A DNA stretch of 64,000 bases, taken from positions 62,001 through 126,000 of the forward strand of contig NZ_CP038637.1 of NCBI RefSeq assembly GCF_004768545.1. Reading direction: 5' to 3'. The translations under genes and the position numbers were made by a program. Source of the DNA: Cupriavidus oxalaticus. GTDB taxonomy: Bacteria > Pseudomonadota > Gammaproteobacteria > Burkholderiales > Burkholderiaceae. Below are positions 1,602 to 62,954 of this stretch, piece by piece. Every line of letters begins with the position of its first letter. Position 1 is the first letter of the stretch. The notes under the pieces are model-generated. The model was given only the letters and a program-made list of their open reading frames with translations. It was not told the origin of the DNA and did not search any database.

Positions 1602-1623
1602 CTGTATCGCTTCAATTATACGG
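1602..1623 (-). promoter_or_regulatory. Shared operator site overlapping a promoter (copy 1)
   Basis: Seen on the plus strand as CTGTAT, ten bases, ATACGG. On the minus strand the right half reads CCGTATAAT, so it includes a perfect TATAAT -10 element. A start about 8 bases downstream would give a leader of roughly 25 bases before ATG 1582. The same palindrome with the same 10-bp gap occurs at seven other places in the window. Confidence 0.75.
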
Positions 1624-1698
1624 GGTTGCAAACAGGGAGAGCCTAAAACAGCCTCATCCAAAAGAGTGAGAAGAAATTACGGAGTGCTTTCTAGATCA

Positions 1699-2235
1699 CT
1701 ATCGTGCCCTCCATGTCCTCACACGCTCATCGACGTCGTTGTGTACGAAGTCCCTCTGGGTGTAGAACCCAACCCCGCCCTGCCGCGCCAGATAGGCCAA
1801 GCGCCCCAGATATTCAGCAGAGATCTCGCGGGTGCTGAAATCTACGGCCCGGAACACTCCCATCTGATTCGGCAAGTGCCGCGAATTCTGAACCCCACCT
1901 TCGCGGCTATTGGTGGAAACCACGCGGCATCCGGAGTGGACGACAAACGGGATCGTGTAACCGTAGGCCGACAGCCACGCCTGCTCCCAGGCCAGCAGCC
2001 GAAGCAGCGCAGGATGCGGGCTACCAGTAAAGCCGGCCTGGACGTCCCGGAGTAGGTACGCCGCAGCACGATATCCCTCAGGCGTAGCGAAGTCGATGCG
2101 CGCCTGGTCCTTGCCGCGGCGCAGCCACAGAACAGAAGGCATCGCGGCCTCCTGCCCCAATGCCTCATGCACCCCCACAGAAGGGGCAATCGCGGCTGCC
2201 GCCACGGCTGCGCGGAGGAAGTCTCGCCTCAACAT
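1699..2235 (-). CDS. Tat-exported M15-like (DUF882/YcbK-type) murein peptidase
   Basis: A 178-residue protein that begins MLRRDFLRAAV, a twin-arginine signal followed by an Ala-rich hydrophobic stretch and a likely cleavage after AlaLeuGly near residue 28. The mature part matches the zinc peptidase M15/DUF882 pattern. The first zinc motif is SRHLPNQMGVFRAVDF (Ser-x-His then Asp seven residues on), and the C-terminal motif is FVHNDVDERVRTW with the second His/Asp. Such enzymes cut peptide crosslinks in murein, so it probably opens the cell wall locally for the transfer apparatus. ATG 2235 overlaps the TGA of trbC by one base (TGATG), showing translational coupling; the GTG just upstream is not needed. 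Confidence 0.8.
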   Translation of the reverse strand: MLRRDFLRAAVAAAAIAPSVGVHEALGQEAAMPSVLWLRRGKDQARIDFATPEGYRAAAYLLRDVQAGFTGSPHPALLRLLAWEQAWLSAYGYTIPFVVHSGCRVVSTNSREGGVQNSRHLPNQMGVFRAVDFSTREISAEYLGRLAYLARQGGVGFYTQRDFVHNDVDERVRTWRAR

Positions 2236-5096
2236 CACCGCGCCTTGTTCGCCGATTTCTCGATGTTCGCCTGCATGCTTCCGAAGAGTTGCTCAATGTC
2301 TTCGATGCTCATGTCTTCAGCAGGCTGACTCCACTTCAACTGCGCTGAGATCTCGCTCTCGGTGGCCTTCACCGCCTCCTGTGGCTGCTCGCTACCGAGT
2401 GCCTCTTCCATGCGCACCAGCATGTCTGCCGCCTCCTGCGTAAAGCCGATGACGACTGGATTGGTCTCGACCTGGTGCGCGGTTCTCTGCGGCGGCTCCG
2501 GGTTCACGAGATCAACCTGTGCAGGGGTCAGATTGTGCTCGCGCTCCATAGTGCGCTCACTGGACGTGTCGCCATCAGCCTGTGGGCTGTCTTGATACTG
2601 GGCGAGCCATTCGTTCAGGCCACCATCTGAACTGTCGCTCGCGCTGCTGGCTGGACTACTGCCGCCTTCCGCACCGCGGACCTGCGCACTCGCCGCTTGG
2701 GCTTCTGGCAACGTGTCATAGTCATCCGGCACAGTAGCACTGACCGTCTTCTCCTTGATGCTCGACAGCACCGATGCAGGTCGCTGTGTAGACTCGGCAA
2801 ACTCACGCACCAACTCTGCAAACGCATTCGACGCGGCTTTCTCCTGCAGCGGGGGATTGTGGTACGGCTCCGTACGGACAGCCGCCTCCTGGTTCGGTGC
2901 GGCAGGCACGATAGCAGGTGCTTCAGCCGCGAAATCAACACCTTCATACTGCTCGATGGCAGAGGGCTCCGGAGCCTGCTCTTCCTCGCCACCGGTTGCC
3001 TTCCAGTAGCGGCCTTGCTCATCGGGCTGGTGCGCGCGCAAAGCTGCCACCGCAGCCTGGTAATAGGCAATGCCGCGATTCACAGCGCCTTCGTTCGGAT
3101 TCGCATCCTCGATCCTTAGCCACGTCTCACGGACCGCTGCGACGATGGGGTCATCGTTGGCTGGGTACTTCTTTGCGGTGCCCTCTCGGATTTTCTGCAG
3201 GATATGGGCAATGGTTGTGAAGCGACGGTCCGTCGCCTTGATTGGCTTCACCTTGCCTTTCAACTCGAAGAACTGCGGACGGTCTACCTGCAGGAAGCGG
3301 TTCAGACGGAAAGGCAGTTTGGTCTTCTTGAACGAGTGGAACCAGGTGAAGCTCCGTGCTCGCGTCACCTGGTCCTTGAAGATCAAGATGCCCTCCATCT
3401 CCTTGAGGGCCTTCAACTCCTGCAGCTCGATGCGATCTCGGCGCTGGATGGACCCCGTTAGCGCCTGATTGAAGTTCGTTGGAAAGAGGTTTCCAACACT
3501 CCCCTCATAGGAGCCCGTCTCGACGGTGATCGCCTGGCCAGCAACCTTCTTGAAGACCTCTAGCGTCTTGTCTGGATCCTCCAATGCCAACGTGTACTTG
3601 ATCTTCGTGTTGGCAATCATCGAATCCACTTCTTCCTTGTTCTCTCCCTTTGCCATAGCCGCCACGTCTTGGCCCGCGGCGATCATCATGAAACCAAGGC
3701 TTCGCGCCTGAGCGAACATGAGCGCGATGCCCTCGGCAAAGTAGTAGCCCAGTTCGTCCATCGTGATGATGTACGGGGCCGGAGAGTTCGTTGCCTTGGT
3801 GTCGATGATCTCTGCGTAGGTACCTTCGAGTCTGTGACCAAGGTTCATCGCCATCATGAGGCGAATACTCGCGACCACGAGCTTGCCAAGGTTGGCCGCT
3901 TCCTGCGCGGACTTCTCCAATGTCGGGATCATGACCACCAGGATGCGCCGGTTCAGCAGCACATCCATCATGTCCACTTCGGAGTATTTGTCCTTGAAGA
4001 TGTAGCCATACGTATCCATCAGCATGGAAAGCGTTCGCGCATATTGGCCGGTCAGGTACCCGTGCTGGTCATAGACACCCTGATCCCACTTGTCTGGCTT
4101 GTCCGCGAGATCTGGGCGGAAGCCAGGCAGGCCTGTCTCAAGGTAGGCCTTGATCGGCAGGAAGGCATACTCCGGAATTTCGCCTTTTTTACCTTTCAGG
4201 TAGAGCTTCACCAAGTTCGGAAGCGCCAGGTATTCCCGGATGACGCCGATGGATAGGGTTAGATTGCCAACTGCTCGCTCGTAACACAGCGTACGCAGCA
4301 CGGCGTCCATCATGTTCACCGCCTTTTGCTGCCACTGCGCCCCATCCCCGCCCGCCTTTGGCAACAACGACGACGAGAGCTGCGACAGGAAATCTGGCGT
4401 GCCCTCGTACCACGGGTTCATGCTGTTCGAATGCTTCTCCGTGGATTTCTTGCGCTTGTACGGATCCGCACCGCCAGTCATGAAGTTGAGGACAAGGTAA
4501 TCGTCCTCCCGACCGGTTCTGCGGCACATGCTCCACACCGCAGCGTGAAGGCTGGAATCAGCCTTGCCGTCCGAGTAGAAGAAGCCCGACCCCCACGCCA
4601 GGGCATTGAAGCAGATCGAGAGCAGCGTGACAGTCTTACCGGAGCCTGTCGTGCCCATCAGCAGCATATGCGTGCGAGCATCCGAGTTCGTGACCCAAAG
4701 CTCTTTGAGATGCTCTGCCTGATCGACGGAACGCTGATTGCCGAGGTGCAGGATGCCGTCTGCTTCCTTGCGTTTGATCACCTCCCCGGTACCATCCTTG
4801 TTCGGCTCCGCCGCTTCCAGCGTAGGGTCAATACCGCCGAGATGCTTTGGCATTCGCATCGGCAGCTGGAAACGCTGCCACGAATACCAGAGCTGCGTAA
4901 GCAGCATCACTACTGTGATCGGAAGCCATAGAAATGACAGTGCTATGGAAGCAACGGCGGCTCCCAGCTGGAATTTTGCATAGTTCCGTGGCTGCTTGAG
5001 CCAATCCCCAATCTTTTGCGCGATGGGGCGAGGGTCGAGCGTGATCCCCTGCTGGGATAGCTCCCGATTAGGCGCGGTCTGGTATGGATTGTTCAC
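2235..5096 (-). CDS. trbC: Type IVB coupling ATPase TrbC (DotL/IcmO family)
   Basis: A 953-residue inner-membrane ATPase that recruits the relaxase-DNA complex to the secretion channel. The N-terminus is cytoplasmic, with a hydrophobic hairpin around residues 43-72. The Walker A motif GTTGSGKT is at about 148-155 and the Walker B-like IITMDELGYY near 450. The flanking sequences (DGKADSSLH, GQDVAAMAKG) are typical of IcmO/DotL and the R64 TrbC group rather than VirD4. From about residue 690 the protein becomes long, acidic and Pro/Gln/Ser-rich, resembling in position the DotL tail that binds adaptors. It lies in an operon with TrbB and TrbA, as in IncI plasmids, and its stop overlaps the next gene. 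Confidence 0.9.
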   Translation of the reverse strand: MNNPYQTAPNRELSQQGITLDPRPIAQKIGDWLKQPRNYAKFQLGAAVASIALSFLWLPITVVMLLTQLWYSWQRFQLPMRMPKHLGGIDPTLEAAEPNKDGTGEVIKRKEADGILHLGNQRSVDQAEHLKELWVTNSDARTHMLLMGTTGSGKTVTLLSICFNALAWGSGFFYSDGKADSSLHAAVWSMCRRTGREDDYLVLNFMTGGADPYKRKKSTEKHSNSMNPWYEGTPDFLSQLSSSLLPKAGGDGAQWQQKAVNMMDAVLRTLCYERAVGNLTLSIGVIREYLALPNLVKLYLKGKKGEIPEYAFLPIKAYLETGLPGFRPDLADKPDKWDQGVYDQHGYLTGQYARTLSMLMDTYGYIFKDKYSEVDMMDVLLNRRILVVMIPTLEKSAQEAANLGKLVVASIRLMMAMNLGHRLEGTYAEIIDTKATNSPAPYIITMDELGYYFAEGIALMFAQARSLGFMMIAAGQDVAAMAKGENKEEVDSMIANTKIKYTLALEDPDKTLEVFKKVAGQAITVETGSYEGSVGNLFPTNFNQALTGSIQRRDRIELQELKALKEMEGILIFKDQVTRARSFTWFHSFKKTKLPFRLNRFLQVDRPQFFELKGKVKPIKATDRRFTTIAHILQKIREGTAKKYPANDDPIVAAVRETWLRIEDANPNEGAVNRGIAYYQAAVAALRAHQPDEQGRYWKATGGEEEQAPEPSAIEQYEGVDFAAEAPAIVPAAPNQEAAVRTEPYHNPPLQEKAASNAFAELVREFAESTQRPASVLSSIKEKTVSATVPDDYDTLPEAQAASAQVRGAEGGSSPASSASDSSDGGLNEWLAQYQDSPQADGDTSSERTMEREHNLTPAQVDLVNPEPPQRTAHQVETNPVVIGFTQEAADMLVRMEEALGSEQPQEAVKATESEISAQLKWSQPAEDMSIEDIEQLFGSMQANIEKSANKAR

Positions 5097-5110
5097 GGTC
5101 GTTCACCGCA

Positions 5111-6109
5111 TCATCGATACTGCTTCACCAGGTCATTCAGATCCAGCAGCTGACCGTCTGCGTTGACCACCGATGGCGTTTGCGTGAGTCCCATCGCTTC
5201 AAACGCCTGGCGGTTCTTTTCAAGCCATTCCTTCCCCTTTGCGCACAACTCGGGGGCACGACCCTGCTTCTGAAACAGCTCTTCGTTCAACGTGCTTTCC
5301 TTACCGCGAACGTCGACCGCCATCGCGTCCCCCCATGCCGCTGCCTGCTGCTTCGAATCCCCCCGGCACAGCGCATCGACAGCCACTTCATCCGACCCGG
5401 GCTTGTAGGCAACGGGTAGGACGACAACCGGTTGATGCCGGGCAAGCTCCTGGATAGCGGGCTCAACCGCTCTGCATGCGGGGCATTTCGGGTCGGAAAA
5501 GACGTAGATCGATGGCGTGCCTTTCGTAAAGAGGACCGGGCTTACAGAAATCTGCCCGTCCGTGCTCGCAACGGGCGAGGCATGGGAAGTCGGCGTAGAA
5601 GGCAGCGCGGTAGGCGCGGCGATTCGGTTTGCTTCGGCAAGGATCGCGGCAGTCAGCTCTGGTGATTGAGATTTCGCGGTAGCGAGAGTTGCGATACTGC
5701 TGTACATGCCAAGGACAAGCAGCGGAACACCGACGTATAGCCCCAGCGTGCGCAGCCTTGCTTTCAGCCGCTCCACGAACGAGCGGCGATGGAATGCTCT
5801 GACGATGAGTCCATGTGCACGCTCGGCGTCCTCGTGCGATTGGAACCTTTCGAGAATGCGCAGCTTTTCGCCCGCATCCTCCGTAACGAAAACGATGGCG
5901 TAAGGCGCGGTAGCTGCATCGTCTTGCGAAGTGTCCCCGGGCCTGGCGGAAGCGACAGAGAAGGCATTCAGCGACGCTTCATTCGCCGAGGTCAACCGAA
6001 CACGCGACAACGCCTTCATATGCCCGGTACCGGCGAAGAATGATGAGAGGGAGCCATCCGGCTCGATGCGCACAAAATCCTTCGGCTTTCGCTCAAACGA
6101 GATCTTCAT
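5111..6109 (-). CDS. trbB: TrbB-like disulfide isomerase with cytoplasmic N-terminal domain
   Basis: 332 residues. The first 110 or so form a soluble domain without a signal peptide. A transmembrane helix follows at about 122-143 (LGLYVGVPLLVLGMYSSIA), then a periplasmic thioredoxin-fold domain with the redox motif CPAC at 209-212 (preceded by YVFSDPK) and a cis-Pro region TPSV near 312. This is the DsbC/DsbG type. In IncI plasmids trbB sits between trbA and trbC, as here. It probably forms or shuffles disulfides in periplasmic transfer proteins. The extra N-terminal domain is not something I recognise from DsbC. Confidence 0.8.
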   Translation of the reverse strand: MKISFERKPKDFVRIEPDGSLSSFFAGTGHMKALSRVRLTSANEASLNAFSVASARPGDTSQDDAATAPYAIVFVTEDAGEKLRILERFQSHEDAERAHGLIVRAFHRRSFVERLKARLRTLGLYVGVPLLVLGMYSSIATLATAKSQSPELTAAILAEANRIAAPTALPSTPTSHASPVASTDGQISVSPVLFTKGTPSIYVFSDPKCPACRAVEPAIQELARHQPVVVLPVAYKPGSDEVAVDALCRGDSKQQAAAWGDAMAVDVRGKESTLNEELFQKQGRAPELCAKGKEWLEKNRQAFEAMGLTQTPSVVNADGQLLDLNDLVKQYR

Positions 6110-6119
6110 TTCCTTTCCT

Positions 6120-7238
6120 TCACGGTCGGTTCAATAGCGAGAATTCTTCTTGCTTGCTGGACTGTTCGATGACGCCTGTGTCCTCGAGATACTTCCGAAG
6201 GCCTGCCAGGGCGTTGTCGACGTGTGGCTCCAACAGGACGCACCCGGCATCCCAAGCCACCTCTTCGGCTTGCATGTGATTGAAGACCCCAGCCGACTCC
6301 ATCATTGGGGCCTTCCGGCCAGCGGTGTTGAGTGGATACCAGAGTGCCCGGTCGTGCGGTTTGAGCCAGATGAACTCCGAGGATGGCAGCGTGCCTAGTT
6401 CGCGTGCTTGAATGAGCATCGCCATCAGTAAAGTGCGCGGATACCTGTGCCTCTTGATCCAGACATCTACTTCTTTGCATTTCATGCAACGCTGGAACGC
6501 AGGTGTGGCCAAGGAGAAGTCAGGCCGCGAGCCTTCATTTGACGCGCTGTAGTTCAGTGCATCCATGAGTGCGCGACATGCCTCGAGGTCCTTGAAGAAC
6601 ACGCGGAGGCCGAGCACGGCGAATAATGCGCGTTCGGTGGGAGCCAGTTTCGCCAGCTGACGACGGTCCGCGACAGGTTGCCCGAGCTGCCGCGCGAGCA
6701 GCTCTCTAGTCCGGTCCTCGTCCAGGTGGTCTGAATAGATCAGCCCGTGCTCAGCAACCCATTCTTCCGGATGCACAGACGATGCCCACTCTGGCGGGTC
6801 TTCCTGAGAAAGATCCCGGTGCAGGATCGGAGCAACCGCAGAAAAGTTCTGGCTCTGCGCTTCCAGCAGGCTTTGAATGGTGTAGACGCTTTTTGATTTG
6901 AGGATCGGGTTGCGCAAGGCCTTAATGGAAAACCAGATGCCGAGTGAAACAGGAACAAAGGCCCAGAGATACCCCACTGCTGACCCAGCTACCCAGATCT
7001 CTTTGAACGTCACGACACGTGCATACTTGAAGTATGTGATCAGCTGCCACTGACGATCCCTTGCGAAGTCGAAGAGCTTGGCCCATGGGTAGATCTCGTA
7101 GCCCTTCCAGATCAGCAGTCGCTGCGCCATGGCCTCATGCCGGAAGGTCCACAGGAACCAGAAGAGCGCGACCGCGATCAGAATGCACATGCCGACCAGC
7201 GGGGCTGCCGAGCGGTCGTTCTTTATTTGATCTGACAT
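6120..7238 (-). CDS. trbA: Coupling complex subunit TrbA (DotM/IcmP family)
   Basis: 372 residues with two N-terminal transmembrane helices (about 13-31 and 83-101) and a large cytoplasmic domain. The diagnostic DotM signature is present near residues 295-330: FIWLKPHDRALWYPLNTAGR followed by an acidic/His segment (VFNHMQAEE). DotM works with DotL as part of the type IVB coupling complex that delivers substrates to the channel. The gene order trbA-trbB-trbC matches R64-type plasmids. Its start overlaps the end of the lytic transglycosylase gene by 16 bases. Confidence 0.87.
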   Translation of the reverse strand: MSDQIKNDRSAAPLVGMCILIAVALFWFLWTFRHEAMAQRLLIWKGYEIYPWAKLFDFARDRQWQLITYFKYARVVTFKEIWVAGSAVGYLWAFVPVSLGIWFSIKALRNPILKSKSVYTIQSLLEAQSQNFSAVAPILHRDLSQEDPPEWASSVHPEEWVAEHGLIYSDHLDEDRTRELLARQLGQPVADRRQLAKLAPTERALFAVLGLRVFFKDLEACRALMDALNYSASNEGSRPDFSLATPAFQRCMKCKEVDVWIKRHRYPRTLLMAMLIQARELGTLPSSEFIWLKPHDRALWYPLNTAGRKAPMMESAGVFNHMQAEEVAWDAGCVLLEPHVDNALAGLRKYLEDTGVIEQSSKQEEFSLLNRP

Positions 7239-7699
7239 CCGAACCTCTTTGCCGCGTTAGCCACCCGCAAGACATAGCCATAACCGATGACGGGGTCTGG
7301 GTTGTGATACTTCGCTACCCCAGTCCAGAAATCACGCGCGCGGTTCATTTCGTATCGCAGGACGTAACCAGCGCCGCGGATAGCAAGACACCGGTCTTGG
7401 ACGATCTGTTGCGCCGTAATGCCGAAGTTGCGCTGGAAATAGCGGATCCAGAAGTCGTTGTGTTGCATGATTCCGTAATCGCGCGATCCGTCCCGATTTG
7501 GCCGGGACACCATATTGGTGCTCTTCGACCCAGAGGTTTCCACCTGGTGGATGCCGCGGAGGATGCAAGACGGCACCTGGTACTCCGCCTCTGCTGCGGC
7601 AAAGCACGCCTCCAGTTCTACGTCGTCCGAAGCAGCAGCGGTGGTTGCGATCAGTGCCGTCGCCGCAGCGACAAGTAGCTTCCGCTGGGCCCCCGTCAT
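7223..7699 (-). CDS. Periplasmic lytic transglycosylase of the transfer system
   Basis: A 158-residue protein with an N-terminal signal peptide (MTGAQRKLLVAAATALIATT, cleavage after AlaAlaAla). It has the SLT-fold landmarks: the catalytic Glu in IHQVETSGS, then YGIMQHN, then the aromatic/Asn-rich YHNPDPVIGYGYV. It makes room in the murein for the channel, as VirB1-type enzymes do. ATG 7699 is preferred over upstream starts because it begins the signal peptide and overlaps the previous stop in the ATGA manner. Confidence 0.85.
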   Translation of the reverse strand: MTGAQRKLLVAAATALIATTAAASDDVELEACFAAAEAEYQVPSCILRGIHQVETSGSKSTNMVSRPNRDGSRDYGIMQHNDFWIRYFQRNFGITAQQIVQDRCLAIRGAGYVLRYEMNRARDFWTGVAKYHNPDPVIGYGYVLRVANAAKRFGCQIK

Positions 7700-8103
7700 T
7701 GCGTTTCCTCGATCTCTTGAATGCAGACCAGCAGATGGCGTAGCTTCTCGGTCGAGAACAGCAAGGCGTATTCGCCTCCCTTCCGAATGCGATCCAGGCG
7801 GCGGTTGGCTTCCGGAATGGTTTCGACGTGATGTGGCCACTTATGCTCGATGGCGATCACGACTGGTATCGCGGCGGTAAACGGCACTGCTGCGAAAAAG
7901 CGGTTCAGCTCGACATGGCATGCTTCCAGGTCATCTCGCGACATGGCTGCGACCATCTTGGCCATGCGATTGGCTGCGGCTGCGATCTGCTGCTTGGGCA
8001 TGCCTTGGTGCGGTGCATCGATCTGCCTTGCAACCATCCGGCCTAGTTCCGACTGCAGCAGCTCGATCAACGCCTCCCGTGGCTCTCCGAGCGTTGAGGC
8101 CAT
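7696..8103 (-). CDS. Hypothetical protein, first gene of the trbA-trbC operon
   Basis: 135 residues, soluble, mostly helical, with no signal peptide and no motif that I recognise. Ser, Glu and Leu are frequent, and there is a helical segment around residues 35-75 (QQIAAAANRMAKMVAAMSRD). It is the promoter-proximal gene of the operon: the shared operator lies 22 bases upstream of its ATG, and its stop overlaps the transglycosylase start (ATGA). The position suggests a transfer function that I cannot name. Confidence 0.65.
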   Translation of the reverse strand: MASTLGEPREALIELLQSELGRMVARQIDAPHQGMPKQQIAAAANRMAKMVAAMSRDDLEACHVELNRFFAAVPFTAAIPVVIAIEHKWPHHVETIPEANRRLDRIRKGGEYALLFSTEKLRHLLVCIQEIEETQ

Positions 8104-8124
8104 GTGTTAGGATCTCCTATAGTT

Positions 8125-8146
8125 CCGTATCGATATATCGATACGC
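8125..8146. promoter_or_regulatory. Shared operator (copy 2) within an 18-bp perfect palindrome
   Basis: CCGTAT, ten bases, ATACGC. The centre GTATCGATATATCGATAC is a perfect 18-bp palindrome. It lies between the divergent genes at 8103 (minus) and 8185 (plus), 22 bases before the minus-strand start, which fits the spacing at the other copies. Confidence 0.75.
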
Positions 8147-8184
8147 ATTGTAACGCCAAACCTAAAGTTGACTGGGAGGAAAAA

Positions 8185-25805: not shown

Positions 25806-26063
25806 GTCCCTCAGTCCCTAGTGGTTCCGAGAAGGCACTTGTGTCTTCGACCCATACTCTCTGGCGGGAAGATGCCACGCCTACCCAACTTTGGTGGGGT
25901 AGGCTCTTCAACGCACGCGTGCGTGTGTAAGTGCTTGATCCCTAAAGTATCTGCCTCTGACGTGCCTGGCAAAGCTCTAGGATGAAATGGCAAACGACAC
26001 CAACACCCGGCCAAGCCGTGAAAGCACAGTATTTGACATATCGCCTCCCTCCCTCTATCGTTT

Positions 26064-26085
26064 ACGTGTCATAGCATCGATACGG
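26064..26085 (+). promoter_or_regulatory. Shared operator in front of repA (copy 3)
   Basis: ACGTGT, ten bases, ATACGG, then AATT. It has the same 10-bp gap as the transfer-gene copies and ends nine bases before repA ATG 26094. It is one of the weaker copies on its left arm. Confidence 0.6.
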
Positions 26086-26093
26086 AATTCAGT

Positions 26094-41308: not shown

Positions 41309-41322
41309 TGTCTTGCCTCGTT

Positions 41323-41344
41323 CTGTATGAATGCATGGATACAT
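41323..41344 (-). promoter_or_regulatory. Shared operator before traY (copy 4)
   Basis: CTGTAT, ten bases (GAATGCATGG), ATACAT, in the 46-bp gap between the traX stop and the traY start. Confidence 0.65.
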
Positions 41345-41354
41345 AAACATACGC

Positions 41355-48306: not shown

Positions 48307-49229
48307 CAGCGGATGACGCCAGCAGTCGTGCGAACGATGAACTTGTCGGCGTCGATCTCAACGATTTCACTTCCGCCGAGCTTGTCACCCTTGGCTTTCA
48401 CATACTGCTTGCCCGTGTCGTCTTCGAGCCAGGCCTGTCCAGGAATGACTTGCTTGATCTTGTAGCCGAGTTGCACCTCCTCCTTCGAGTTCGTGCGAGA
48501 ACGCGTCGCCTTTGTGCGGACCACGCCGGCAGCCTTCTCTCTCGCGCGGTCCTCGTCTGAGAGAGGCTTACTAGCGCGGGCAGGCTTCGAAGCGGTCTTG
48601 GCATCAACGCGGCGAGTCTCGAGTGCGGAAAGGCGCTTTCCCATGTCCTCAAGCTGCACTGTCTGCGCCTTTAGCTGCTGCAGGATGGCAGCATCTGCGT
48701 CGCTCATCTCCTTTCGGTCCGAATTTTTGAGGCCAGGCTTGCCGGTTGCGATCTCGGCTGCGTCATTGGTTGCGCTAGCCGCCAGTGACGCGACGAAAGG
48801 GACGCTCGCCGAAGCGGAATTCACCGACTCTGACGCGGACGCCGGCAGGCTGCTATTGCTCATCGCGGGATCTGCGCCACTAGGGGCGAAACCCTGCGCT
48901 GCCGTCTCTTGCTGCGCTTGACGGACCGGAGCAAATGAGCCCGGTGCGGGGCGTTCGGGATTCGCTGCAGCGCCCATCATGCCGCCGTCGTTCATAGGCG
49001 CGCTGGCAGCAAAGCCAGCCGGACTGGATGGCTTCGTCATCTTCTTGAAGCCCCAGAAGCCCAGCACAGCCACGGCTACCGCACCGTAGATCAGATAGTT
49101 TGTCGGCAGCTTGCGCTTCGGCTTCTCCGAAGTTGAAACGTCGGTGACGTCATCCTGCGAAATATCGTGTTGGGGGTCGTCGTGCTCGCTGGTTTCGAGG
49201 TGGGCGTCAAAGTGGTTGGTCTGGCTCAT
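48306..49229 (-). CDS. traP: TraP (DotF/IcmG-like) inner-membrane protein
   Basis: 307 residues. The N-terminus is cytoplasmic and acidic (DAHLETSEHDDPQHDISQDD), followed by one transmembrane helix at about 42-59 (LPTNYLIYGAVAVAVLGFWG). Then come a low-complexity Ala/Ser/Pro stretch, a coiled coil (about 180-205: SDADAAILQQLKAQTVQLED) and a compact C-terminal beta domain (QLGYKIKQVIPGQAWLEDD). This is the DotF plan. The operator copy 5 is 14 bases upstream, so the operon can also be started here. Confidence 0.7.
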   Translation of the reverse strand: MSQTNHFDAHLETSEHDDPQHDISQDDVTDVSTSEKPKRKLPTNYLIYGAVAVAVLGFWGFKKMTKPSSPAGFAASAPMNDGGMMGAAANPERPAPGSFAPVRQAQQETAAQGFAPSGADPAMSNSSLPASASESVNSASASVPFVASLAASATNDAAEIATGKPGLKNSDRKEMSDADAAILQQLKAQTVQLEDMGKRLSALETRRVDAKTASKPARASKPLSDEDRAREKAAGVVRTKATRSRTNSKEEVQLGYKIKQVIPGQAWLEDDTGKQYVKAKGDKLGGSEIVEIDADKFIVRTTAGVIR

Positions 49230-49243
49230 CGGGTGCCCCTAGT

Positions 49244-49265
49244 GCGTATCCATGCAATTATACGT
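49244..49265 (-). promoter_or_regulatory. Shared operator before traP (copy 5)
   Basis: GCGTAT, ten bases, ATACGT. On the minus strand the right arm reads ACGTATAATTG, again with a perfect TATAAT, placed to start transcription about 21 bases before the traP ATG. Confidence 0.75.
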
Positions 49266-49284
49266 AAGAATCGGGATGCGAATT

Positions 49285-51690: not shown

Positions 51691-52377
51691 CTAGTTGATT
51701 TTTGTGTTGCAAGTAAGCCGCAGGGACTGGGTAGCAATGCCTGCCGGGTTGTCTTCGACCGGCAGACGCTTGACCGTTTGCTTGACCAGGCATTCGTAGG
51801 TCTTGCGCTCGCTCTGGCCGGTGATGGTGATGGCGATGGGCATCTCGGTTTCCCATGTGTACACGCCGTCCCGCTCATACTCGTTTGCGATCACCCCCGC
51901 ACCAGTGGCTACGGCTGACGTCACCAACCGGCGCGAGCGGATCTTCTCGATGAGGCCCGACGTGTCGTACTGCTCCATCAGGGAGGCGTATCCGTCGCGG
52001 GTGAACTGTGGCCGCAGCGCAACCAACTTCGCTTTGAGATTGGTGTCATCGAAGTCGAGTGAGAAGGCCCCGGTCGCAGTCTTCTGTACCTTCTGCAAGA
52101 CCGCTTCGCTACTGACGAACGGCTTCGACAGCGGGACGATTTGGATCAGACGGCCCCCTTCTGTCATGCCGACGAGGACCGGCGCGGGCCGCGTCACGAA
52201 CTGCGTAATGTTCAGGGCCACTGATCCGACCAAGGCGAAACCGATGACGAGGTTGTTTCGGAGCTGACGACTGAACCCTGACTTGTAGAAGCCGGACGTG
52301 GCCAGCATCTTCATGATGGGGTCCGTGTTCATGGCCGGACGCGCGCCGGCTGGAGACTTTTGAGCTGGCGATGTCAT
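51691..52377 (-). CDS. traM: TraM (DotI/IcmL) inner-membrane protein
   Basis: 228 residues. A transmembrane helix at about 43-60 (NNLVIGFALVGSVALNITQF) precedes a periplasmic domain of about 160 residues with the IcmL features (PLSKPFVSSEAVLQKVQKTA and a NTF2-like beta structure, RDGVYTWETEMPIAITITG). DotI and relatives form a ring that links the ATPases with the core. ATG 52377 overlaps the stop of the regulator gene (TAATG). Confidence 0.9.
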   Translation of the reverse strand: MTSPAQKSPAGARPAMNTDPIMKMLATSGFYKSGFSRQLRNNLVIGFALVGSVALNITQFVTRPAPVLVGMTEGGRLIQIVPLSKPFVSSEAVLQKVQKTATGAFSLDFDDTNLKAKLVALRPQFTRDGYASLMEQYDTSGLIEKIRSRRLVTSAVATGAGVIANEYERDGVYTWETEMPIAITITGQSERKTYECLVKQTVKRLPVEDNPAGIATQSLRLTCNTKIN

Positions 52378-52727
52378 TAGGCGGTGTCCTTCTCTGGCTG
52401 GCGAGCAGCAAATCGCTCCGGATACAGTAGGTGGATCTCGGACACGATCATGTACACGCCGCCCATGCGGTCGAGAAGCTCTTTGCAGGCGGCTAGTAGC
52501 TTCGTCTTCTGTTCCGAGGGTGCCCCGTCTTTATCGCGGCCACACGTTCCAGAGTTGAGAATGCGCGCCAGACTCGCCGCGACTTCCGGCGTCGGCACGC
52601 CGCCTTGCTCCAGGCGGGTGAAGTACGAACGGGAAATCCCAGCGGCTTCACAGAGCTTGTCTGGGCTGAGGTTGCGCGCCACGCGGATGGCCTTCAGAGC
52701 CGTCAGCGGTCTATCAGATGCGGACAT
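52377..52727 (-). CDS. XRE-family transcriptional regulator, first gene of the transfer operon
   Basis: 116 residues. An HTH of the Cro/CI type lies at about 10-60: LKAIRVARNLSPDKLCEAAG then ISRSYFTRLEQGG, with the usual TPEVAASLARIL after it. The C-terminal half is helical and may dimerise. It is the first gene of the core transfer operon, and a copy of the shared operator is 17 bases upstream, so it probably represses or activates itself. I propose that it is the regulator that binds all eight sites; this is inference. Confidence 0.8.
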   Translation of the reverse strand: MSASDRPLTALKAIRVARNLSPDKLCEAAGISRSYFTRLEQGGVPTPEVAASLARILNSGTCGRDKDGAPSEQKTKLLAACKELLDRMGGVYMIVSEIHLLYPERFAARQPEKDTA

Positions 52728-52744
52728 TGGGACGTTGCTTAATT

Positions 52745-52766
52745 ATGTATCGTGTCAATGGTACGA
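52745..52766 (-). promoter_or_regulatory. Shared operator before the XRE gene (copy 6)
   Basis: ATGTAT, ten bases, GTACGA, inside a longer inverted repeat AATTATGTAT-10-GTACGAAATT (52741-52770). Confidence 0.65.
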
Positions 52767-52770
52767 AATT

Positions 52771-55588: not shown

Positions 55589-55601
55589 GGAGCCGTTGAT
55601 T

Positions 55602-55623
55602 CCGTATAATGGCAATGATACGG
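55602..55623 (+). promoter_or_regulatory. Shared operator and promoter of the traKLM-like operon (copy 7)
   Basis: CCGTAT, ten bases, ATACGG, a perfect palindrome in its arms. TATAAT (55605-55610) is contained in it, with a start about 27 bases before ATG 55644. It begins 13 bases after the 11-bp repeat array ends. Confidence 0.8.
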
Positions 55624-55643
55624 ATTACAAAGGAGGCTCCGCG

Positions 55644-56099
55644 ATGGAGAGAAGCAGCGTGGCAGGCGCGCTGCGCGCATTGGCAACAGACAGCAAGGGG
55701 CGGTCCGAGACTGCGCGCCTGCGCGACGTGTTCGAGGAGGTGGAAGCAGCTCTCAGCGCTGGCGTGAAGCGCCAAGCGATCCTGGACGCTTTGAACGCGC
55801 AGGGCTTCAGGATGACCCTCAAGGGCTTCGAGAGCGCGATGTATCGAATCCGCAGACAACGAGGCAAGACGACCCGAGTGTCGTGCGCAGCCCCGTTGTC
55901 CGCTTCGCCGCCCATGCCCCCCCAGACCCAACCCACCTTTACCAGTGAGCCACCGGTGGCTAGCGCGGCTACAGCCGATACGGCCACTGAGGCAGTACGC
56001 GATGCACTGACCAATCAGCAATCGCGCGAAGAAAAATTCTCGCGTTACTCAAGCAGCACCACCCTTTCCAAACGTCTTGGACAGAAAAAGGAGTCCTAA
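55644..56099 (+). CDS. TraK/StbA-like DNA-binding protein
   Basis: 151 residues from ATG 55644, with AAAGGAGG seven bases before. The N-terminal 70 residues (SETARLRDVFEEVEAALSAG, then ILDALNAQGFRMTLKGFESA) match the short helical DNA-binding domain of StbA/TraK-type plasmid proteins. The rest is Pro/Thr-rich and flexible. The operon traK-traL-traM-like order and size (151, 229, 146 residues) resemble both RP4 traKLM and R388 stbABC. It probably binds the 11-bp array, controls its operon and keeps plasmids apart or the oriT ready. Confidence 0.65.
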   Translation: MERSSVAGALRALATDSKGRSETARLRDVFEEVEAALSAGVKRQAILDALNAQGFRMTLKGFESAMYRIRRQRGKTTRVSCAAPLSASPPMPPQTQPTFTSEPPVASAATADTATEAVRDALTNQQSREEKFSRYSSSTTLSKRLGQKKES

Positions 56100-56789
56100 A
56101 TGCGTGTCGCCGTTATCAACTTTTCAGGCAACGTTGGCAAGTCCACGCTCGCCCGCCATCTTCTCGCGCCGCGACTGAACACCGAGCTGATCACCGTCGA
56201 AACGATCAACGCAGACGAAGGCGGCGAGAGCATCAAGGCCAGCCAGTACGACGAGTTGCAAAGCCATCTGCTTACGAACGACGTTGCTGTGATCGATATT
56301 GGAGCCTCCAACATCGAGGCCTTCATCCATGCGATGACGCAATACCGCAGATCCCACGAGGACTTTGACTGTTTCGTTGTTCCGGTCGTGAAGGAATCCA
56401 AGCAGCAGAAAGACACTATCGCCACCATTGACGCGCTGTCAGCTCTTGGTGTGCCAGCTAAGAAGATCCGCGTGGTGTTCAACAAATTGGCCATCGATGA
56501 CGATGTGCATAGCGAGTTTGGGGCGATCTTCGGCTACGCCACTGAGGAAAAGAAATGCGTTGTGAGGCCTGAGGCCGCCGTCTTCGAGAACGATGTCTTT
56601 GAGAGAAGCAAGGCACTCAGCAAGACGATTTCCGAGATTCTGGCGGACACCACCGATTTCCGCGCCAAACTTAAGGAGGCCAAGGACGACCACGAGAAGG
56701 AACACTGCGTGCAAATGATCCTCGCCAAACGCCTGGCGGACTCGGCCAACGAAAACCTGGACGCGGTCTATAAGGTGTTGTTCAAGTAG
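56100..56789 (+). CDS. TraL/StbB-like ParA-family ATPase
   Basis: 229 residues starting one base after the previous stop, with AAAAGGAG before it. The P-loop is NFSGNVGKSTLARHL, a deviant Walker A with Asn/Val where ParA has Gly-Gly. Later VAVIDIGASNIEA and CFVVPVVKESKQQKDT give the Walker B region and the switch. The group is known in StbB of IncW and TraL of IncP plasmids, where it affects plasmid location or transfer. It is different from the true ParA at 59774. Confidence 0.75.
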   Translation: MRVAVINFSGNVGKSTLARHLLAPRLNTELITVETINADEGGESIKASQYDELQSHLLTNDVAVIDIGASNIEAFIHAMTQYRRSHEDFDCFVVPVVKESKQQKDTIATIDALSALGVPAKKIRVVFNKLAIDDDVHSEFGAIFGYATEEKKCVVRPEAAVFENDVFERSKALSKTISEILADTTDFRAKLKEAKDDHEKEHCVQMILAKRLADSANENLDAVYKVLFK

Positions 56790-56800
56790 AGCCCGCGGCT

Positions 56801-57241
56801 ATGCGTGATATCCGAAAGGTCCACGAAGCTCTCCTGGCGCAGCACTTCGAGGACGTCGACCAACTCGCAGACAAGATCTCAGACGCGGCCAAGAAGGTCG
56901 AGCTGGCCACGGCCACGCTAACCGCAATGAACGGCACGCCACGTCCTGCAATCTCGAAGCCAGCCCCTCACCGCACAACGCCGCATACGCGGGCAAGCTG
57001 GGAGAGGCGTGGAATGTGGGCCGCTGCAGTGATTGCAGGCGTCATCGTATCGGCTGGCGTGGGTGCCCTGGTTAGTCACCATCAGCCCGTGCAGACGCCC
57101 GAGCAGGCGCAGGCCACGGATATCGGTCGCGCCATTGTGCGAGCCTGGCCTAGGCTCGATAACGCAACGCAGACGACGATCTGGAACGCGCTCGACTCGC
57201 AAGCACAAGAGGCTCTAGCCTACTCCGTTCGACGCAGATAG
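56801..57241 (+). CDS. TraM/StbC-like membrane protein
   Basis: 146 residues. The first 45 are a coiled coil (EDVDQLADKISDAAKKVELA). A single transmembrane helix lies at about 72-92 (MWAAAVIAGVIVSAGVGALV). The end is a small periplasmic domain. It is the last gene of the traKLM-like operon and is followed by an inverted repeat. The size matches RP4 TraM. No sequence match can be claimed. Confidence 0.6.
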   Translation: MRDIRKVHEALLAQHFEDVDQLADKISDAAKKVELATATLTAMNGTPRPAISKPAPHRTTPHTRASWERRGMWAAAVIAGVIVSAGVGALVSHHQPVQTPEQAQATDIGRAIVRAWPRLDNATQTTIWNALDSQAQEALAYSVRRR

Positions 57242-58757: not shown

Positions 58758-58763
58758 GCGGCG

Positions 58764-59765
58764 TTAAGCGGTCGGCTTCACGCCCAGTTGTGCCTGGATG
58801 AAGTCGTCCACGAGTTCGGCCAATTTCTGTTGCTGTTCCTCGGTCAGGACAGTTTTCTTGCACACAACCTTCGTGTCCTTGCCGCTTACACTGACAGATA
58901 CCAAGCCCGTGTTATTCCTAGCCGATTTGGGGGCCTCCGCCTCCCGCGGGCCGTCGTCCATCAGCGCAGCAAAGACCTTCTTCGGCGTGCGCTCAGTGAC
59001 TTCCTTAGCTTGACGCAACCGCTCTGCGAGAACGCGCGGCTCCAGCTTCGATAAGCCGGTTAAGTCTTTCACCCACGGAAACTGGATATCGTTTGGACTA
59101 TCGAACGCCTCCACCAAGGTAGAGGGCAGGGCAAACGCCGCAATCGAACGGGAAACGTGCGCTTGACTCACTCCGACATCCGACGCCATAGCGTTCTGCG
59201 AAGGCCACAGCCCTGCGTCCAGAGCCATTTGGTATGACCGGCCTTGCTCCCAGGCACTAGGGTTCTTGCGCTCCCGGTTCTCGTGCTCCATCTGCATAAA
59301 CAGATCACGATCGGTCAGTTGCTCATCGATCTGCGCCAACACCGGAAGATTGTCGACCAGGCATGCGTGATGACGCCGGTTTCCAAACACCAACTCGTAT
59401 TCGCCGTCTTCGCGCGGACGAACCTTGATCGGAACCACGTTGCCCTGAGTGCTCTTAATGGCCTCCCGCAACTCCTGGAAGGCTCCATCCGAATAGCTGT
59501 CCTCATGCCGGTTAGCCCAGCGCGAGCGATGCACCAGCTTCGGGTCGAGCTTGCGAACTGGCTGAGCACCGTCAAACTTCTCAAGCTCGCTTTTCAGTGA
59601 CTCAACCTGCTTGGTGTGTTCCAGCATCTGCTGACGGAACGCAAGCATCTGTCCCGGCCCTGTCTTCGGCGCGCTATCCCGCTCTCTGGACTGCGGCTCT
59701 TCGGACGCAGGCCGCGCCACGCCAATATTGCCGGACTTGGCCAGCAAACGATCCTTGATCGACAT
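58764..59765 (-). CDS. parB: Partition protein ParB
   Basis: 333 residues from ATG 59765 with AAGGAGG before it. The ParB/Srx domain has VPIKVRPREDGEYELVFGNR then RHHACLVDNLP (about 118-145) and the HTH SQNAMASDVGVSQAHVSRSI (about 200-225). The N-terminus has a basic/coiled stretch for ParA contact, and the C-terminus a dimerisation part. It follows parA by eight bases. It binds parS and spreads to drive segregation. Confidence 0.93.
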   Translation of the reverse strand: MSIKDRLLAKSGNIGVARPASEEPQSRERDSAPKTGPGQMLAFRQQMLEHTKQVESLKSELEKFDGAQPVRKLDPKLVHRSRWANRHEDSYSDGAFQELREAIKSTQGNVVPIKVRPREDGEYELVFGNRRHHACLVDNLPVLAQIDEQLTDRDLFMQMEHENRERKNPSAWEQGRSYQMALDAGLWPSQNAMASDVGVSQAHVSRSIAAFALPSTLVEAFDSPNDIQFPWVKDLTGLSKLEPRVLAERLRQAKEVTERTPKKVFAALMDDGPREAEAPKSARNNTGLVSVSVSGKDTKVVCKKTVLTEEQQQKLAELVDDFIQAQLGVKPTA

Positions 59766-59773
59766 ATACCTCC

Positions 59774-60928
59774 TTACTGAGCGGTCTTGGCCCAATAGGC
59801 CTGGATGGATTGCTCGACCAATTCTGTGACTCGGTCATAGGCCTCGCGGGCCCGCCGATAGGTGCTTGCGCTACCGTCATAGCGCGACACGTCATAGACC
59901 GTACCGAACTCCGCGGAGGAATTGGAAGTGACCGTCGTCTTCGGGATCTCCACCGGCAAAACCTTCTCTGCGTAGGTCGCGGAGATCCACTGGCGCACCA
60001 CGCTGGCCGCGGCATCGTTGTGGTCCACTCGCGCGAGCAGTACGTGAATGAACTCGAAAGTCTTATCCACGCCCGTAGTCTGAGTCAGGTTCAGCGCCAG
60101 GTCGCTGAAAAGAGTCCAGAACTGTGCAGAGCTGGCAAAATCCAAAGCATTTGGCGGCGTAGGCACGATCAAGCCATCAGCCGCCATGAAGGCGTTGACC
60201 GTGCCGTAGCTCAGCGCGGGCGGGGTGTCGATCAGAATCACGTCGTAGGCCTCGCGCGTAGCGGCAAGCCCCCCGTTCAGGACATTCCAAAACTGAAACT
60301 CCGGGTCCTTCATCTGTCGTGCAGGCAGACCAAATTCGCAGGTGAACAGGGTAGGGGAAGCAGGTACTAGGTCAATGCCGTCCCAATAGGTAGAGCGGAT
60401 GGCATAGTCCAGCGAGTCCTCATCCCCATTGGCCAGCGGGACAAACGTGTCTTCTTCGCGAACTTCGGTGTCAGGCAGGATGCCGAATAGCGTGGTCAGC
60501 GAGCCTTGTGGGTCCATGTCGATCACGAGCACGCGATGACCCCGCAGGCTAAGTCCTTGCGCGAGAGTCATCGTCGTGGTGGTCTTGCTCACACCACCTT
60601 TGAAATTGCACACGGCGATGGTCATCGCCTTCGCACCCTTCGGCTTGGCCATCTTTGCGCGAAAGACGCGGACCCACTCCCGGGCCTCTGCCAACGTGAA
60701 TTCCCGACGACGGCCTGTGTCGTTCACCACGCCACTCGGCAACTCGTTGCGAGTCAATCGATAAGCGATGGCGGTCTTTTCCGCGCCGCACAGACCGGCG
60801 AGTTGGACCATGTTGAAGACAGGCGGTTGCTTTCGAGCCTCTGGCGCCAGCATTCGCCCCCGCACGTCCCTAACAGTGCTGGCGGCTTTTAGTGCCTGTT
60901 CCGCAATGTCGTAGATAGAAATCGCCAT
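59774..60928 (-). CDS. parA: Partition ATPase ParA (type Ia with N-terminal HTH)
   Basis: 384 residues from ATG 60928. An N-terminal DNA-binding domain (about 35-95: FNMVQLAGLCGAEKTAIAYR, TGRRREFTLAEAREWVRVF) is typical of type Ia ParA proteins that also repress their own operon. The deviant Walker A KGGVSKTTT is at 110-118, with VLVIDMDPQGS and VILIDTPPALSYG after it. ParA moves plasmids along the nucleoid with ParB. The inverted repeat upstream (60941-61013) is its likely operator. Confidence 0.95.
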   Translation of the reverse strand: MAISIYDIAEQALKAASTVRDVRGRMLAPEARKQPPVFNMVQLAGLCGAEKTAIAYRLTRNELPSGVVNDTGRRREFTLAEAREWVRVFRAKMAKPKGAKAMTIAVCNFKGGVSKTTTTMTLAQGLSLRGHRVLVIDMDPQGSLTTLFGILPDTEVREEDTFVPLANGDEDSLDYAIRSTYWDGIDLVPASPTLFTCEFGLPARQMKDPEFQFWNVLNGGLAATREAYDVILIDTPPALSYGTVNAFMAADGLIVPTPPNALDFASSAQFWTLFSDLALNLTQTTGVDKTFEFIHVLLARVDHNDAAASVVRQWISATYAEKVLPVEIPKTTVTSNSSAEFGTVYDVSRYDGSASTYRRAREAYDRVTELVEQSIQAYWAKTAQ

Positions 60929-60940
60929 GAGCAAGCCCTT

Positions 60941-61013
60941 CATCAATTTGAGATGAAGGCATCATATCTTGCCCCGACACAGAGAAGCAAACAAATTTGA
61001 ACCTAAATTGATG
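60941..61013. promoter_or_regulatory. Putative ParA operator and promoter region
   Basis: CATCAATTT (60941-60949) and AAATTGATG (61005-61013) form an inverted repeat around an AT-rich stretch with a second CAAATTTGAA element. It lies between rep and parA, where the autoregulatory site of type Ia systems is expected. Confidence 0.5.
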
Positions 61014-61024
61014 CTTTCAACCAA

Positions 61025-62326
61025 TTAGGTATGAATCGTCTTTGTTCGTTCGGCCAGCCACACCGCAAAAGCGTCGTCGCCGAGATCCAAGCCTACTTGA
61101 CTCGGTAGCCATCGGCGAAAGGCAACACGGGCAGCACCGCCCGGAAAATGATCCGTCTTCGTTTCCGAGAAGTCGTTGGCGTAAGGCTTCCCGGCATCGG
61201 TAGTGATAAACACGCGAGCCAGGCCTAGCAATTCAGAAGGGGTCAAGGCTTGCACCGACTTTGCCTTGGTGCCGCGTTCAAACTCAGATCTCAGGTCTGC
61301 TAGCGCTTCAATCTCGCGCTGGGACTTGGCCTTTTGGCTGGCGTCTTCTTTTCGTCGCAGCTGCGTGGGCTTTTGCACGTCAGCGCCGCTGTCCATCAAT
61401 GAACGGATAAATCCACCCGTGCTGCTACGAATCTCACCCTTGCCATCCTTCTCTTCGGCCAGTTCGACAATACGGGCTGCTCGCTCAGGGTCCTCGGCAA
61501 GGAAACTCAGCGCCAGCTTCTCTCCGATGCCATGTTTGCGCAAGCGCGCAAACAGAGGCGATTCCCGCAAGCGAGAAACTTCATCCAACTCGTCAGGCGG
61601 CAACAGAGACGCCTGACGATTCGGATCCACCTGGAAGCGCACCGCAGTCACCTTCGGACCCACCTTGATCAGATGCAACGTCAGCTCGATGTCTGCGACT
61701 CGGTTGATCTCTTTGATCGCAGGCGTCAGGACCTTTTGTCGCAGGCGGCCAAAGTCGCTGTAGTGGTCGGAAGTCGCCCCTAGCAGCTTACGCAACGTCC
61801 CTACGTCCCATTCACCTGTTGAGCCCACCTTCAGGTACCGCAAGCAGTTCTCATAGAGAGCCAAGGCGTAGCTGCCGTTGAAACGGGTCTGCACGCCAAT
61901 ATGCACCTTGGCGTAGATGGCGGGGTCATACAGCTTCTCGGCCAGAGCTTCATCGTATCGGTAAGTGCAGGCGCCGCCGTGTATGCGCCCGTATGAGATG
62001 ATGGAGGTCGCGCTCCAGTCCTCTCCGCCTTTGAAGTTATCTCCCATCAGATTGAATTCGATGGGAGTGGACATGAGCCGAAGTAGGGCGTCCTTCAGCT
62101 TGCGCTGACTGGTGCTAGTCTCCCAGCCCAGGATCACACACAGTGCAGCGACCGGAATCCTATGAGTACGCGCCGTTGGCAAGTCATCGTACGCGTTCAA
62201 CAGAAGCACGTTCGACAACTTCCTCTCGAGCAGGCTCAATTCGCCGCTGGTATGGATGGCGGCAACATGCTTTTTGAGGTGATTCTTGCGCGGCTCCTGG
62301 CCGCCGTCATGTGATGTGGCTTGCAT
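61025..62326 (-). CDS. Replication initiator, Rep_3 family
   Basis: 433 residues from ATG 62326. Upstream codons in the same frame are translated iterons and so not part of the gene. Two winged-helix domains fit the Rep_3/RepB type: the first with LSLLERKLSNVLLLNAYDDL and GWETSTSQRKLKDALLRL, the second with NGSYALALYENCLRYLKVG and WDVGTLRKLLGATSDHYSDF (about 190-240). It binds the iterons just upstream. It is next to parAB, forming a complete second replicon beside the RepA one. Confidence 0.88.
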   Translation of the reverse strand: MQATSHDGGQEPRKNHLKKHVAAIHTSGELSLLERKLSNVLLLNAYDDLPTARTHRIPVAALCVILGWETSTSQRKLKDALLRLMSTPIEFNLMGDNFKGGEDWSATSIISYGRIHGGACTYRYDEALAEKLYDPAIYAKVHIGVQTRFNGSYALALYENCLRYLKVGSTGEWDVGTLRKLLGATSDHYSDFGRLRQKVLTPAIKEINRVADIELTLHLIKVGPKVTAVRFQVDPNRQASLLPPDELDEVSRLRESPLFARLRKHGIGEKLALSFLAEDPERAARIVELAEEKDGKGEIRSSTGGFIRSLMDSGADVQKPTQLRRKEDASQKAKSQREIEALADLRSEFERGTKAKSVQALTPSELLGLARVFITTDAGKPYANDFSETKTDHFPGGAARVAFRRWLPSQVGLDLGDDAFAVWLAERTKTIHT

Positions 62327-62413
62327 GGCGCCTATGTTGCACCATTTCACCCAATGCAACAAGGTCAGAAAGGGCGAAAGGTCGCCTGTATCTCCACACT
62401 CCTTCTCTATCAG

Positions 62414-62642
62414 ATTCCAGATTGGGTGAAACCAACCGGCTACCCATTCCAGACTGGGTGAACAGTCATTCCAGATTGGGCGATATCTACCCGCGCATCG
62501 ATTCCATTTTGGGTGAAACGCCATTCTAGATCGGGTGAAAGGTGCTCGCTAAGCCGCCTCCAGCAACACTTCTAGCGGCGTAAACGCTTTTAAAGCTGTA
62601 TACGTAAACGTAAACCCAAACACACATTCCAAACTGGGTGAA
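62414..62642 (+). repeat. oriV2: Rep_3 iterons (second origin)
   Basis: Six 17-bp copies with consensus ATTCCAGATTGGGTGAA start at 62414, 62446, 62468 (last bases differ), 62501, 62523 and 62626. Spacings are 22, 32-33 and a longer gap, that is, near whole numbers of helical turns. A half copy in inverted orientation lies at 62344-62355. They are directly upstream of the Rep_3 gene. Confidence 0.88.
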
Positions 62643-62924
62643 ACGTCGCATCGGCTCTAGGAAGCTCTATGTTGTTGCTTCTTTGATCACGATTTCAACG
62701 AAACTCCGCTGGACGCTGATGCGCCGAAGTCGGTAGCGACCAGCACTCGGATTAGATATCCGCCCCTGCTCGGATCCAGGCACCACCGCAAGCTTCGTCC
62801 GGGCGATGCCGCCCACGAAAGGGACGCCTGACCAGCAACGCCAACCCCAACCCCAACCCCATCGTGCCAGGCTTAACCGCCATGGCAGCTCATGCATACC
62901 GGGCACATTTTTGTTTGAGAGTAA

Positions 62925-62954
62925 AATTCCGTATGATATTATCGATACGAAATT
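62925..62954 (+). promoter_or_regulatory. Shared operator before traH (copy 8)
   Basis: AATTCCGTAT, ten bases, ATACGAAATT, the longest copy: nine of ten arm positions pair. A TATGAT -10 element (62932-62937) overlaps it. It ends 20 bases before ATG 62975. Confidence 0.8.

Follow-up and report, generated by a model that had tools for sequence, protein, structure and literature searches.

Which protein acts on a palindrome that recurs before the conjugation and replication genes of a plasmid is the question raised by the DNA analysed here, a stretch of 64,000 nucleotides (the window) comprising bases 62001-126000 of contig C4 (134,509 bp) of Cupriavidus oxalaticus, whose genome of 7.97 Mb is held in seven contigs. 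The eight palindromes of the window are operators of a real, ancient, plasmid-wide regulon. The regulator proposed is HTH2, the name given here to an uncharacterised protein predicted to contain two tandem helix-turn-helix (HTH) domains, which would be an autoregulated master repressor of the plasmid backbone genes, repA included in the Burkholderiaceae branch. The probability that HTH2 binds and represses in this way, as sequence comparison suggests, is put at roughly 0.7. One site is repeated before transfer, pilus, stability and replication genes, and it co-occurs with a protein that probably switches them off together.

C4 is probably a circular Cupriavidus plasmid, since the pilR gene spans both ends of the contig. 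The window DNA is 94.6% identical to plasmid pMTS3 of Cupriavidus sp. P-10 and 83.5% identical, over the matched pieces, to the plasmid of C. gilardii WM2 (hereafter WM2). The transfer system belongs to the IncI/Dot-Icm-like class (MPF_I, type IVB), as assigned from relatives of DotI/TraM, DotM/TrbA, DotD/TraH, the coupling protein and DotA/TraY (Pfam DotM_C, T4BSS_DotI_IcmL, DotD and T4SS-DNA_transf; WM2 orthologues).

The operator and its frequency

The original prediction described eight copies of CCGTAT-N10-ATACGG, or a close variant, whose arms are always ten bases apart. All eight were confirmed at this spacing, but the six-base arms are exact at 55602 only. What is constant is the core GTAT-N10-ATAC, exact in six of the eight, with GTGT for GTAT at 26064 and GTAC for GTAT at 52745 (read in the direction of its gene). 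The full operator is a dyad of ∼30 bp, AATTCCGTATC-N8-GATACGGAATT. For the copy placed at 62925, that position is the start of the wider 30-bp dyad, whereas the 22-mer itself lies at 62929-62950. Start codons had been put at 9-24 bases after each site; placement near the start was borne out, with a measured range of 8-24 bases past the 22-mer and the value of 8 at repA.

The core occurs 11 times on C4 (six times within the window), whereas 200 first-order Markov sequences averaged 0.25 occurrences and never exceeded 4, and the spacing of 10 is unique in that every other spacing from 0 to 30 yields three occurrences at most. In the entire genome the core was found 29 times, 11 of these on C4, which makes up 1.7% of the DNA. 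The 18 dyad loci on other contigs reached matrix scores of 11.0 bits at best, compared with 27.1-34.8 bits for the eight window sites.

The first matrix was built from 43 sites of three Cupriavidus plasmids and has a 30-bp consensus, AATTCCGTATCGTTGCAACGATACGGAATT, of 27 bits; its training left out the C4:36763 (BamE) site and three sites internal to pilQ but kept sites 32547 and 35246, the two lowest (13.3 and 14.4 bits). A dyad within the pilQ reading frame is kept in all three Cupriavidus plasmids (C4:132202, i.e. window 70202; WM2 4332; pMTS3 348017). A second matrix, from 49 sites of five non-C4 elements, is independent of the letters of C4, though not of the first matrix, by which its sites were chosen. 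On C4 it returned 17 sites of at least 14 bits, namely the eight described above, which were its sole matches in the window, and nine outside it. The idea that this regulon has no further known member is thereby overturned, and the matrix search of plasmid and genome did not give equal numbers of matches at random places.

Looser patterns were less informative. With six-base arms and up to three mismatches, 24 matches were found in the window against 14.2 expected, and this pattern is weak by itself because 24 was reached by 3 of 100 shuffles; the strict core is strong. As a genus-wide pattern the CCGTAT arms (MCGTATM-N8-KATACGK) proved too strict in their outer bases, matching 24 of 60 genomes and their own genome once. 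De novo ranking of dyads put this motif first in C4 and in G606 (see below) only, other dyads being top-ranked in Pseudomonas-type plasmids. The strongly enriched dyad ACGTA-N2-TACGT was counted 6, 12 and 7 times in the pGRT1 (L088-L090), Stutzerimonas (L091-L092) and Stenotrophomonas (L093-L094) plasmids, with 0.04-0.06 expected, and is perhaps a second operator, for another plasmid regulator.

Conservation of the operator

In WM2 and in pMTS3 each of the eight window sites has its counterpart before the corresponding gene, with varying middle bases. G606, which represents another genus of the family, has 22 sites of at least 20 bits on a contig of 112,690 bp. There, seven of the eight window genes keep their site, including repA, traY, traP, traH, the trb operon and the XRE operon; the stb operon, the eighth, was itself not detected there. 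The repA operator is present in C4, WM2, pMTS3 and G606 alike, and the claim of one regulon of transfer and replication genes is upheld by these counterparts. Each of the seven further elements examined has a site upstream of the XRE gene, ending 18-28 bp short of its start codon.

Four named plasmids (pGRT1 of Pseudomonas putida, pEMT1 of Paraburkholderia hospita, and those of Stutzerimonas frequens and Stenotrophomonas rhizophila) hold 33 sites of at least 16 bits, of which 21 have a gene start within 50 bp and 29 within 200 bp, the starts being taken from hand-copied lists around the sites, annotated by others, and not from whole gene tables. The distance from core to start codon is 17-23 bp for traH, 14-15 bp for traP where traP has a site, and 19-25 bp for traM (the Stenotrophomonas gene, annotated only as hypothetical, is taken to be traM from its position); on C4 the distances are 26, 16 and, for the XRE-traM operon, 19 bp. 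pMTS3 was scanned on either side of its middle 256 kb, pEMT1 up to its last 133 bases, and the Enterobacter plasmid discussed below up to its last 9 kb.

In five Burkholderiaceae elements traH has two operators 45-46 bp apart (L040 9527/9572, L041 9802/9847, L042 10263/10308, L043 4827/4873, L046 10444/10489), and in L045 there are two that are more widely spaced. An identical operator-like sequence of 19.4 bits occurs in two inverted copies of a transposon region of pGRT1 (78180 and 102941), with no listed gene start near; these probably lie outside the regulon.

HTH2 as the candidate repressor

HTH2 is present in every site-rich element examined, and in G606, G477, G456, pGRT1, pEMT1 and the Stutzerimonas and Stenotrophomonas plasmids. 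In a census, 16 of 17 elements with both HTH2 and an MPF_I system held 2-22 sites of at least 20 bits, three of these positives being the matrix training set; shuffled versions of 15 of them gave 0.00 sites. By contrast, such a site was found in none of eight MPF_I elements without HTH2, six of which were read over 20 kb only, and a single 16-bit site was seen in G469 (0.25 expected). The operator stands directly before the HTH2 gene in Pseudomonas, Stutzerimonas, Stenotrophomonas, Paraburkholderia and G456/G477, and on C4 before the upstream gene of its operon.

When the WM2 proteins were screened openly for presence in seven of seven site-bearing and none of two site-free whole plasmids, HTH2, hyp60820, hyp56325, the DUF87 ATPase and TraQ passed. 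Among these, HTH2 alone matched a Pfam helix-turn-helix family, at 17-24 bits for HTH_3/HTH_31 (14.7 in P0010) and so below the cut-off of 27. The AlphaFold model of P0006, which is 92% identical to HTH2, is HTH-like (pLDDT 91.6). No KorA/KorB-type Pfam family was found for HTH2 at E 0.5 or 0.1, and Foldseek matched it to nothing in the pdb and viral libraries at E 0.001.

Several results weigh against HTH2 as the repressor. The Enterobacter plasmid pKM98_p3 is an exception to the census, with an HTH2 of 35% identity, no site of at least 20 bits and two at 16. The co-occurrence screen is passed equally by hyp60820, hyp56325 and DUF87. Furthermore, the expectation that a bound protein would cover the promoter was supported by the TATAAT (in an arm at traP, the stb operon and the HTH2 operon) and TATGAT (at 62925), which were found as described, but less so overall: a sigma-70-like match (at least 9/12) overlaps 38% of 80 sites compared with 28% of controls, a weak excess.

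In pKM98_p3 an altered palindrome, of the TTACAYATAATACGCAC type, was recognised by eye upstream of DotI and of the trb operon (L108, L109), and could be the operator form of a distant HTH2 relative. G477 and G456 are intermediate: each has two sites of at least 20 bits, the counts at 16 bits are three and six, and the palindrome is visibly altered.

Other candidate regulators

Of the three binders first suggested, the protein encoded at 1-457 (HTH2) fits best, whereas the XRE protein is absent from some site-bearing plasmids and the protein encoded at 55644 was not found on the site-bearing G606 contig. That a constant partner regulates instead (hyp60820, always beside HTH2, hyp56325 or the DUF87 ATPase), either alone or in complex with HTH2, would account for the screen as well as HTH2 does. 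No Pfam DNA-binding domain was found in hyp60820 or hyp56325 at E 0.5, however, and DUF87 is by annotation the name of an ATPase family. Such a regulator is unlikely, though any of the three may act beside HTH2.

The XRE protein (52377-52727) might instead act on all these promoters, that of its own traM operon included, as a repressor dimer of the classic Cro/CI type. Its HTH domain is above the Pfam cut-off (HTH_3/HTH_31, 38.9 bits against 27 and 35.8 against 23), it is identical over 114-116 residues in WM2 and pMTS3 despite the 83.5% DNA identity of WM2, and its promoter carries the site in all eight Burkholderiaceae elements examined. Where overall identity has fallen to 40%, the helix around S-R-S/P-Y-x-T-R is kept, as is the site. 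Among Burkholderiaceae relatives the XRE protein thus looked a perfect regulator, and it failed once plasmids lacking it showed the same sites: tblastn (E 1e-4) detected no relative in pGRT1, pEMT1 or the Stutzerimonas and Stenotrophomonas plasmids, each with 5-9 sites of at least 20 bits, and a profile search detected none in the whole genomes of the site-bearing G477 and G456. The site in its own promoter proves nothing, because every regulated gene has one. It is accordingly improbable that the XRE protein is the regulator, although within its own branch it could share these sites with the main regulator. It was found in 9 of 398 genomes of the family; no relatives were matched in the genome-contig and viral-contig collections, and a structure search of the PDB returned one HTH protein (E 0.00084).

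StbA does bind on the IncW plasmid R388, and the StbA-like protein at 55644 could in principle bind the sites here. The operon at 55602, previously called traK-like, is stbABC-like: it bears a site, and its order of stbA, stbB and a third gene agrees with the assignment. The StbA-like protein matches NCBIfam StbA_2 weakly, at 29.5 bits against a cut-off of 100. No StbA, StbB or StbC relative was detected at E 1e-4 on the G606 contig with its 22 sites, a contig that may be part of the element, and it is very unlikely that this protein is the common binder.

That the palindromes are RNA hairpins in 5' leaders, recombination sites or products of chance is scarcely credible: they do sit shortly before start codons, but they are far above chance at a fixed spacing, their extended AATT arms and varying middle bases at kept positions resemble a protein operator, and at the XRE gene the site lies directly after a TTGACA-N17-TTTAAT promoter, which ends just before it, so that the site would not be transcribed whole.

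Proposed mechanism and the link to replication

According to the proposed scheme, HTH2 would occupy the 30-bp dyad as a dimer, on top of the transcription start or beside it. Repression is proposed because the sites lie where repressors sit, most of them separated from the following start codon by anything from a few bases to a few tens. The targets would be traH-K, the (XRE-)traM-O operon, traP, traY, the trb operon, stbABC, repA and several leading-region and pilus genes. Because the HTH2 gene is under the same operator, negative feedback would hold expression of both HTH2 and the backbone genes to a low set point; entry into a repressor-free cell would release all regulated genes together as a burst of expression. 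Both burst and feedback are proposed by analogy with the repressor network of IncP-1 plasmids, as set out in the cited passages (PMC4889941).

The notion that one protein also sets RepA-dependent copy number is weaker than first claimed. Control through RepA is possible only where repA has an operator, namely in C4, WM2, pMTS3 and G606. No site was seen before the RepA genes of the pGRT1, Stutzerimonas and Stenotrophomonas plasmids (in pEMT1 the stretch upstream of repA was incompletely covered). C4 has two replication initiators, RepA (PF04796), with an operator, and a Rep3-type protein at 61025-62524, without one. Because of this operator-free initiator and the lack of repA sites elsewhere, coupling of transfer to replication, as read from operator positions, would be limited to the Cupriavidus/G606 branch. 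The annotation of WM2 names RepA only.

A wider view would have HTH2 found an undescribed family of two-headed repressors that serves as the master switch of a large MPF_I branch in Beta- and Gammaproteobacteria, operator and protein changing together (the Burkholderiaceae and Pseudomonas, G456/G477 and Enterobacter forms). In Burkholderiaceae the switch would also have taken over repA and a second regulator, XRE; a plasmid arriving in a new cell would then express its transfer, replication and stability genes in a single burst. We regard the chances of this wider view as even.

Comparison with known systems

The circuit is best read as one of the plasmid global repressor circuits already known, in which HTH2 would work like KorA/KorB with an unrelated protein. 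In the passages cited for IncP-1 KorA/KorB/TrbA/KorC (PMC4889941), global repressors are plasmid-encoded, palindromic operators lie at many backbone promoters, and an HTH protein controls itself. As for KorA/KorB, one operator is found at transfer, stability and replication promoters, including that of its own operon, a likeness that rests here on positions. In IncP-1, as described there, four repressors cooperate, as opposed to one operator type here; HTH2 matched no KorA/KorB-type Pfam family, and the transfer system differs.

Closer in transfer type is MtvT/MtvA of the Pseudomonas MPF_I plasmid pPAD8, reported in the passages cited to repress the dotA, dotD, icmP and icmL promoters and its own gene (PMC11826091). 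The same type IVB dot/icm promoters and own gene are the proposed targets of HTH2, but MtvA is there an AbrB/MazE-type protein with the motif TAACATTGTTA (PMC11826091). Plasmid pND6-2, which is related to pPAD8, has neither HTH2 nor the site (0 sites). TraN of pIP501 also has two HTH units and represses its tra operon and own promoter; they are winged, however, and TraN is described in the passages cited as a monomer on a 34-bp site in a Gram-positive type IV secretion system (PMC10877727). Negative control of an MPF_I tra region by Orf35/Orf36 of the IncM plasmid pCTX-M3, which have no known DNA-binding motif, comes with no operator in the passages on them (PMC6112013), unlike the dyad here. 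HTH2 was in addition compared with the HTH proteins HigA2, MqsA and Aca2 over its second HTH unit (VIA-align). In the open-access literature (subscription journals and preprints fell outside the search), neither a GTAT-N10-ATAC operator, HTH2, nor a master regulator for this type IVB branch was found described.

Type IVB (IncI-like) systems spread catabolic and other cargo genes among Burkholderia, Cupriavidus and Pseudomonas relatives. If HTH2 is the master regulator of the branch studied here, a protein family whose members are mostly listed as hypothetical would acquire a function, ∼20 promoters per plasmid would share one operator that a matrix can find, and the coupling of transfer to replication would become testable.

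Operators and genes of the window

Coordinates of the operators and associated genes are collected in Table 1.

Table 1. Operators and associated genes, in window coordinates
Feature	Position	Strand	Remarks
HTH2, proposed master repressor	1-457	-	whole gene C4:61948-62457 (window -52 to 457); first 152 of 170 residues inside window
First gene of HTH2-containing operon, hypothetical	464-1615	-	as for pMTS3, translation more likely starts near 1582
Operator before operon of HTH2 and constant neighbour hyp60820	1598-1627	-	27.5 bits; counterparts in WM2, pMTS3, G606
Peptidase adjoining trb operon	1702-2235
trb operon: hyp69198, lytic transglycosylase, TrbA/DotM, TrbB, TrbC coupling protein	2235-8103	-
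trb operon operator	8121-8150	-	33.2 bits; counterparts in WM2, pMTS3, G606
repA operator (left arm GTGT)	26060-26089	+	33.5 bits; counterparts in WM2, pMTS3, G606
repA, replication initiator	26094-27098	+	PF04796
traY/dotA	39080-41314	-	start set as in pMTS3
traY operator	41319-41348	-	27.1 bits; counterparts in WM2, pMTS3, G606
traP, first gene of traP-traQ-... run	48306-49229	-
traP operator	49240-49269	-	28.9 bits; counterparts in 10/10 aligned elements
traM/dotI	51691-52377	-	3' of XRE gene; followed by traN/dotH, traO/dotG
XRE-family regulator	52377-52727	-	Burkholderiaceae branch only; regulated gene, second-rank candidate regulator
Operator of XRE-traM-traN-traO operon	52741-52770	-	34.8 bits
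stbABC-like operon operator	55598-55627	+	34.7 bits; counterparts in WM2, pMTS3, G416
stbABC-like operon	55644-57241	+	StbA-like 55644-56099, StbB 56100-56789, third gene 56801-57241
Operator of traH-traI-traJ-traK operon	62925-62954	+	34.7 bits; counterparts in 10/10 aligned elements and four named plasmids
traH/dotD	62975-63424	+

The partition cassette (window 58764-60946) differs from the remaining backbone. Its ParA is just 42% identical to that of WM2, and no relative of the WM2 ParB was found on C4 at E 1e-5; together these argue that the cassette has been exchanged.

MPF_I systems were also seen on very large contigs, L039 on a contig of 4.6 Mb (G416 contig C1) and L044/L045 on one of 3.3 Mb (G724 contig C2), as an integrated element or as part of a big replicon. 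In G724 the transfer region lies at both contig ends, which is probably an untrimmed overlap.
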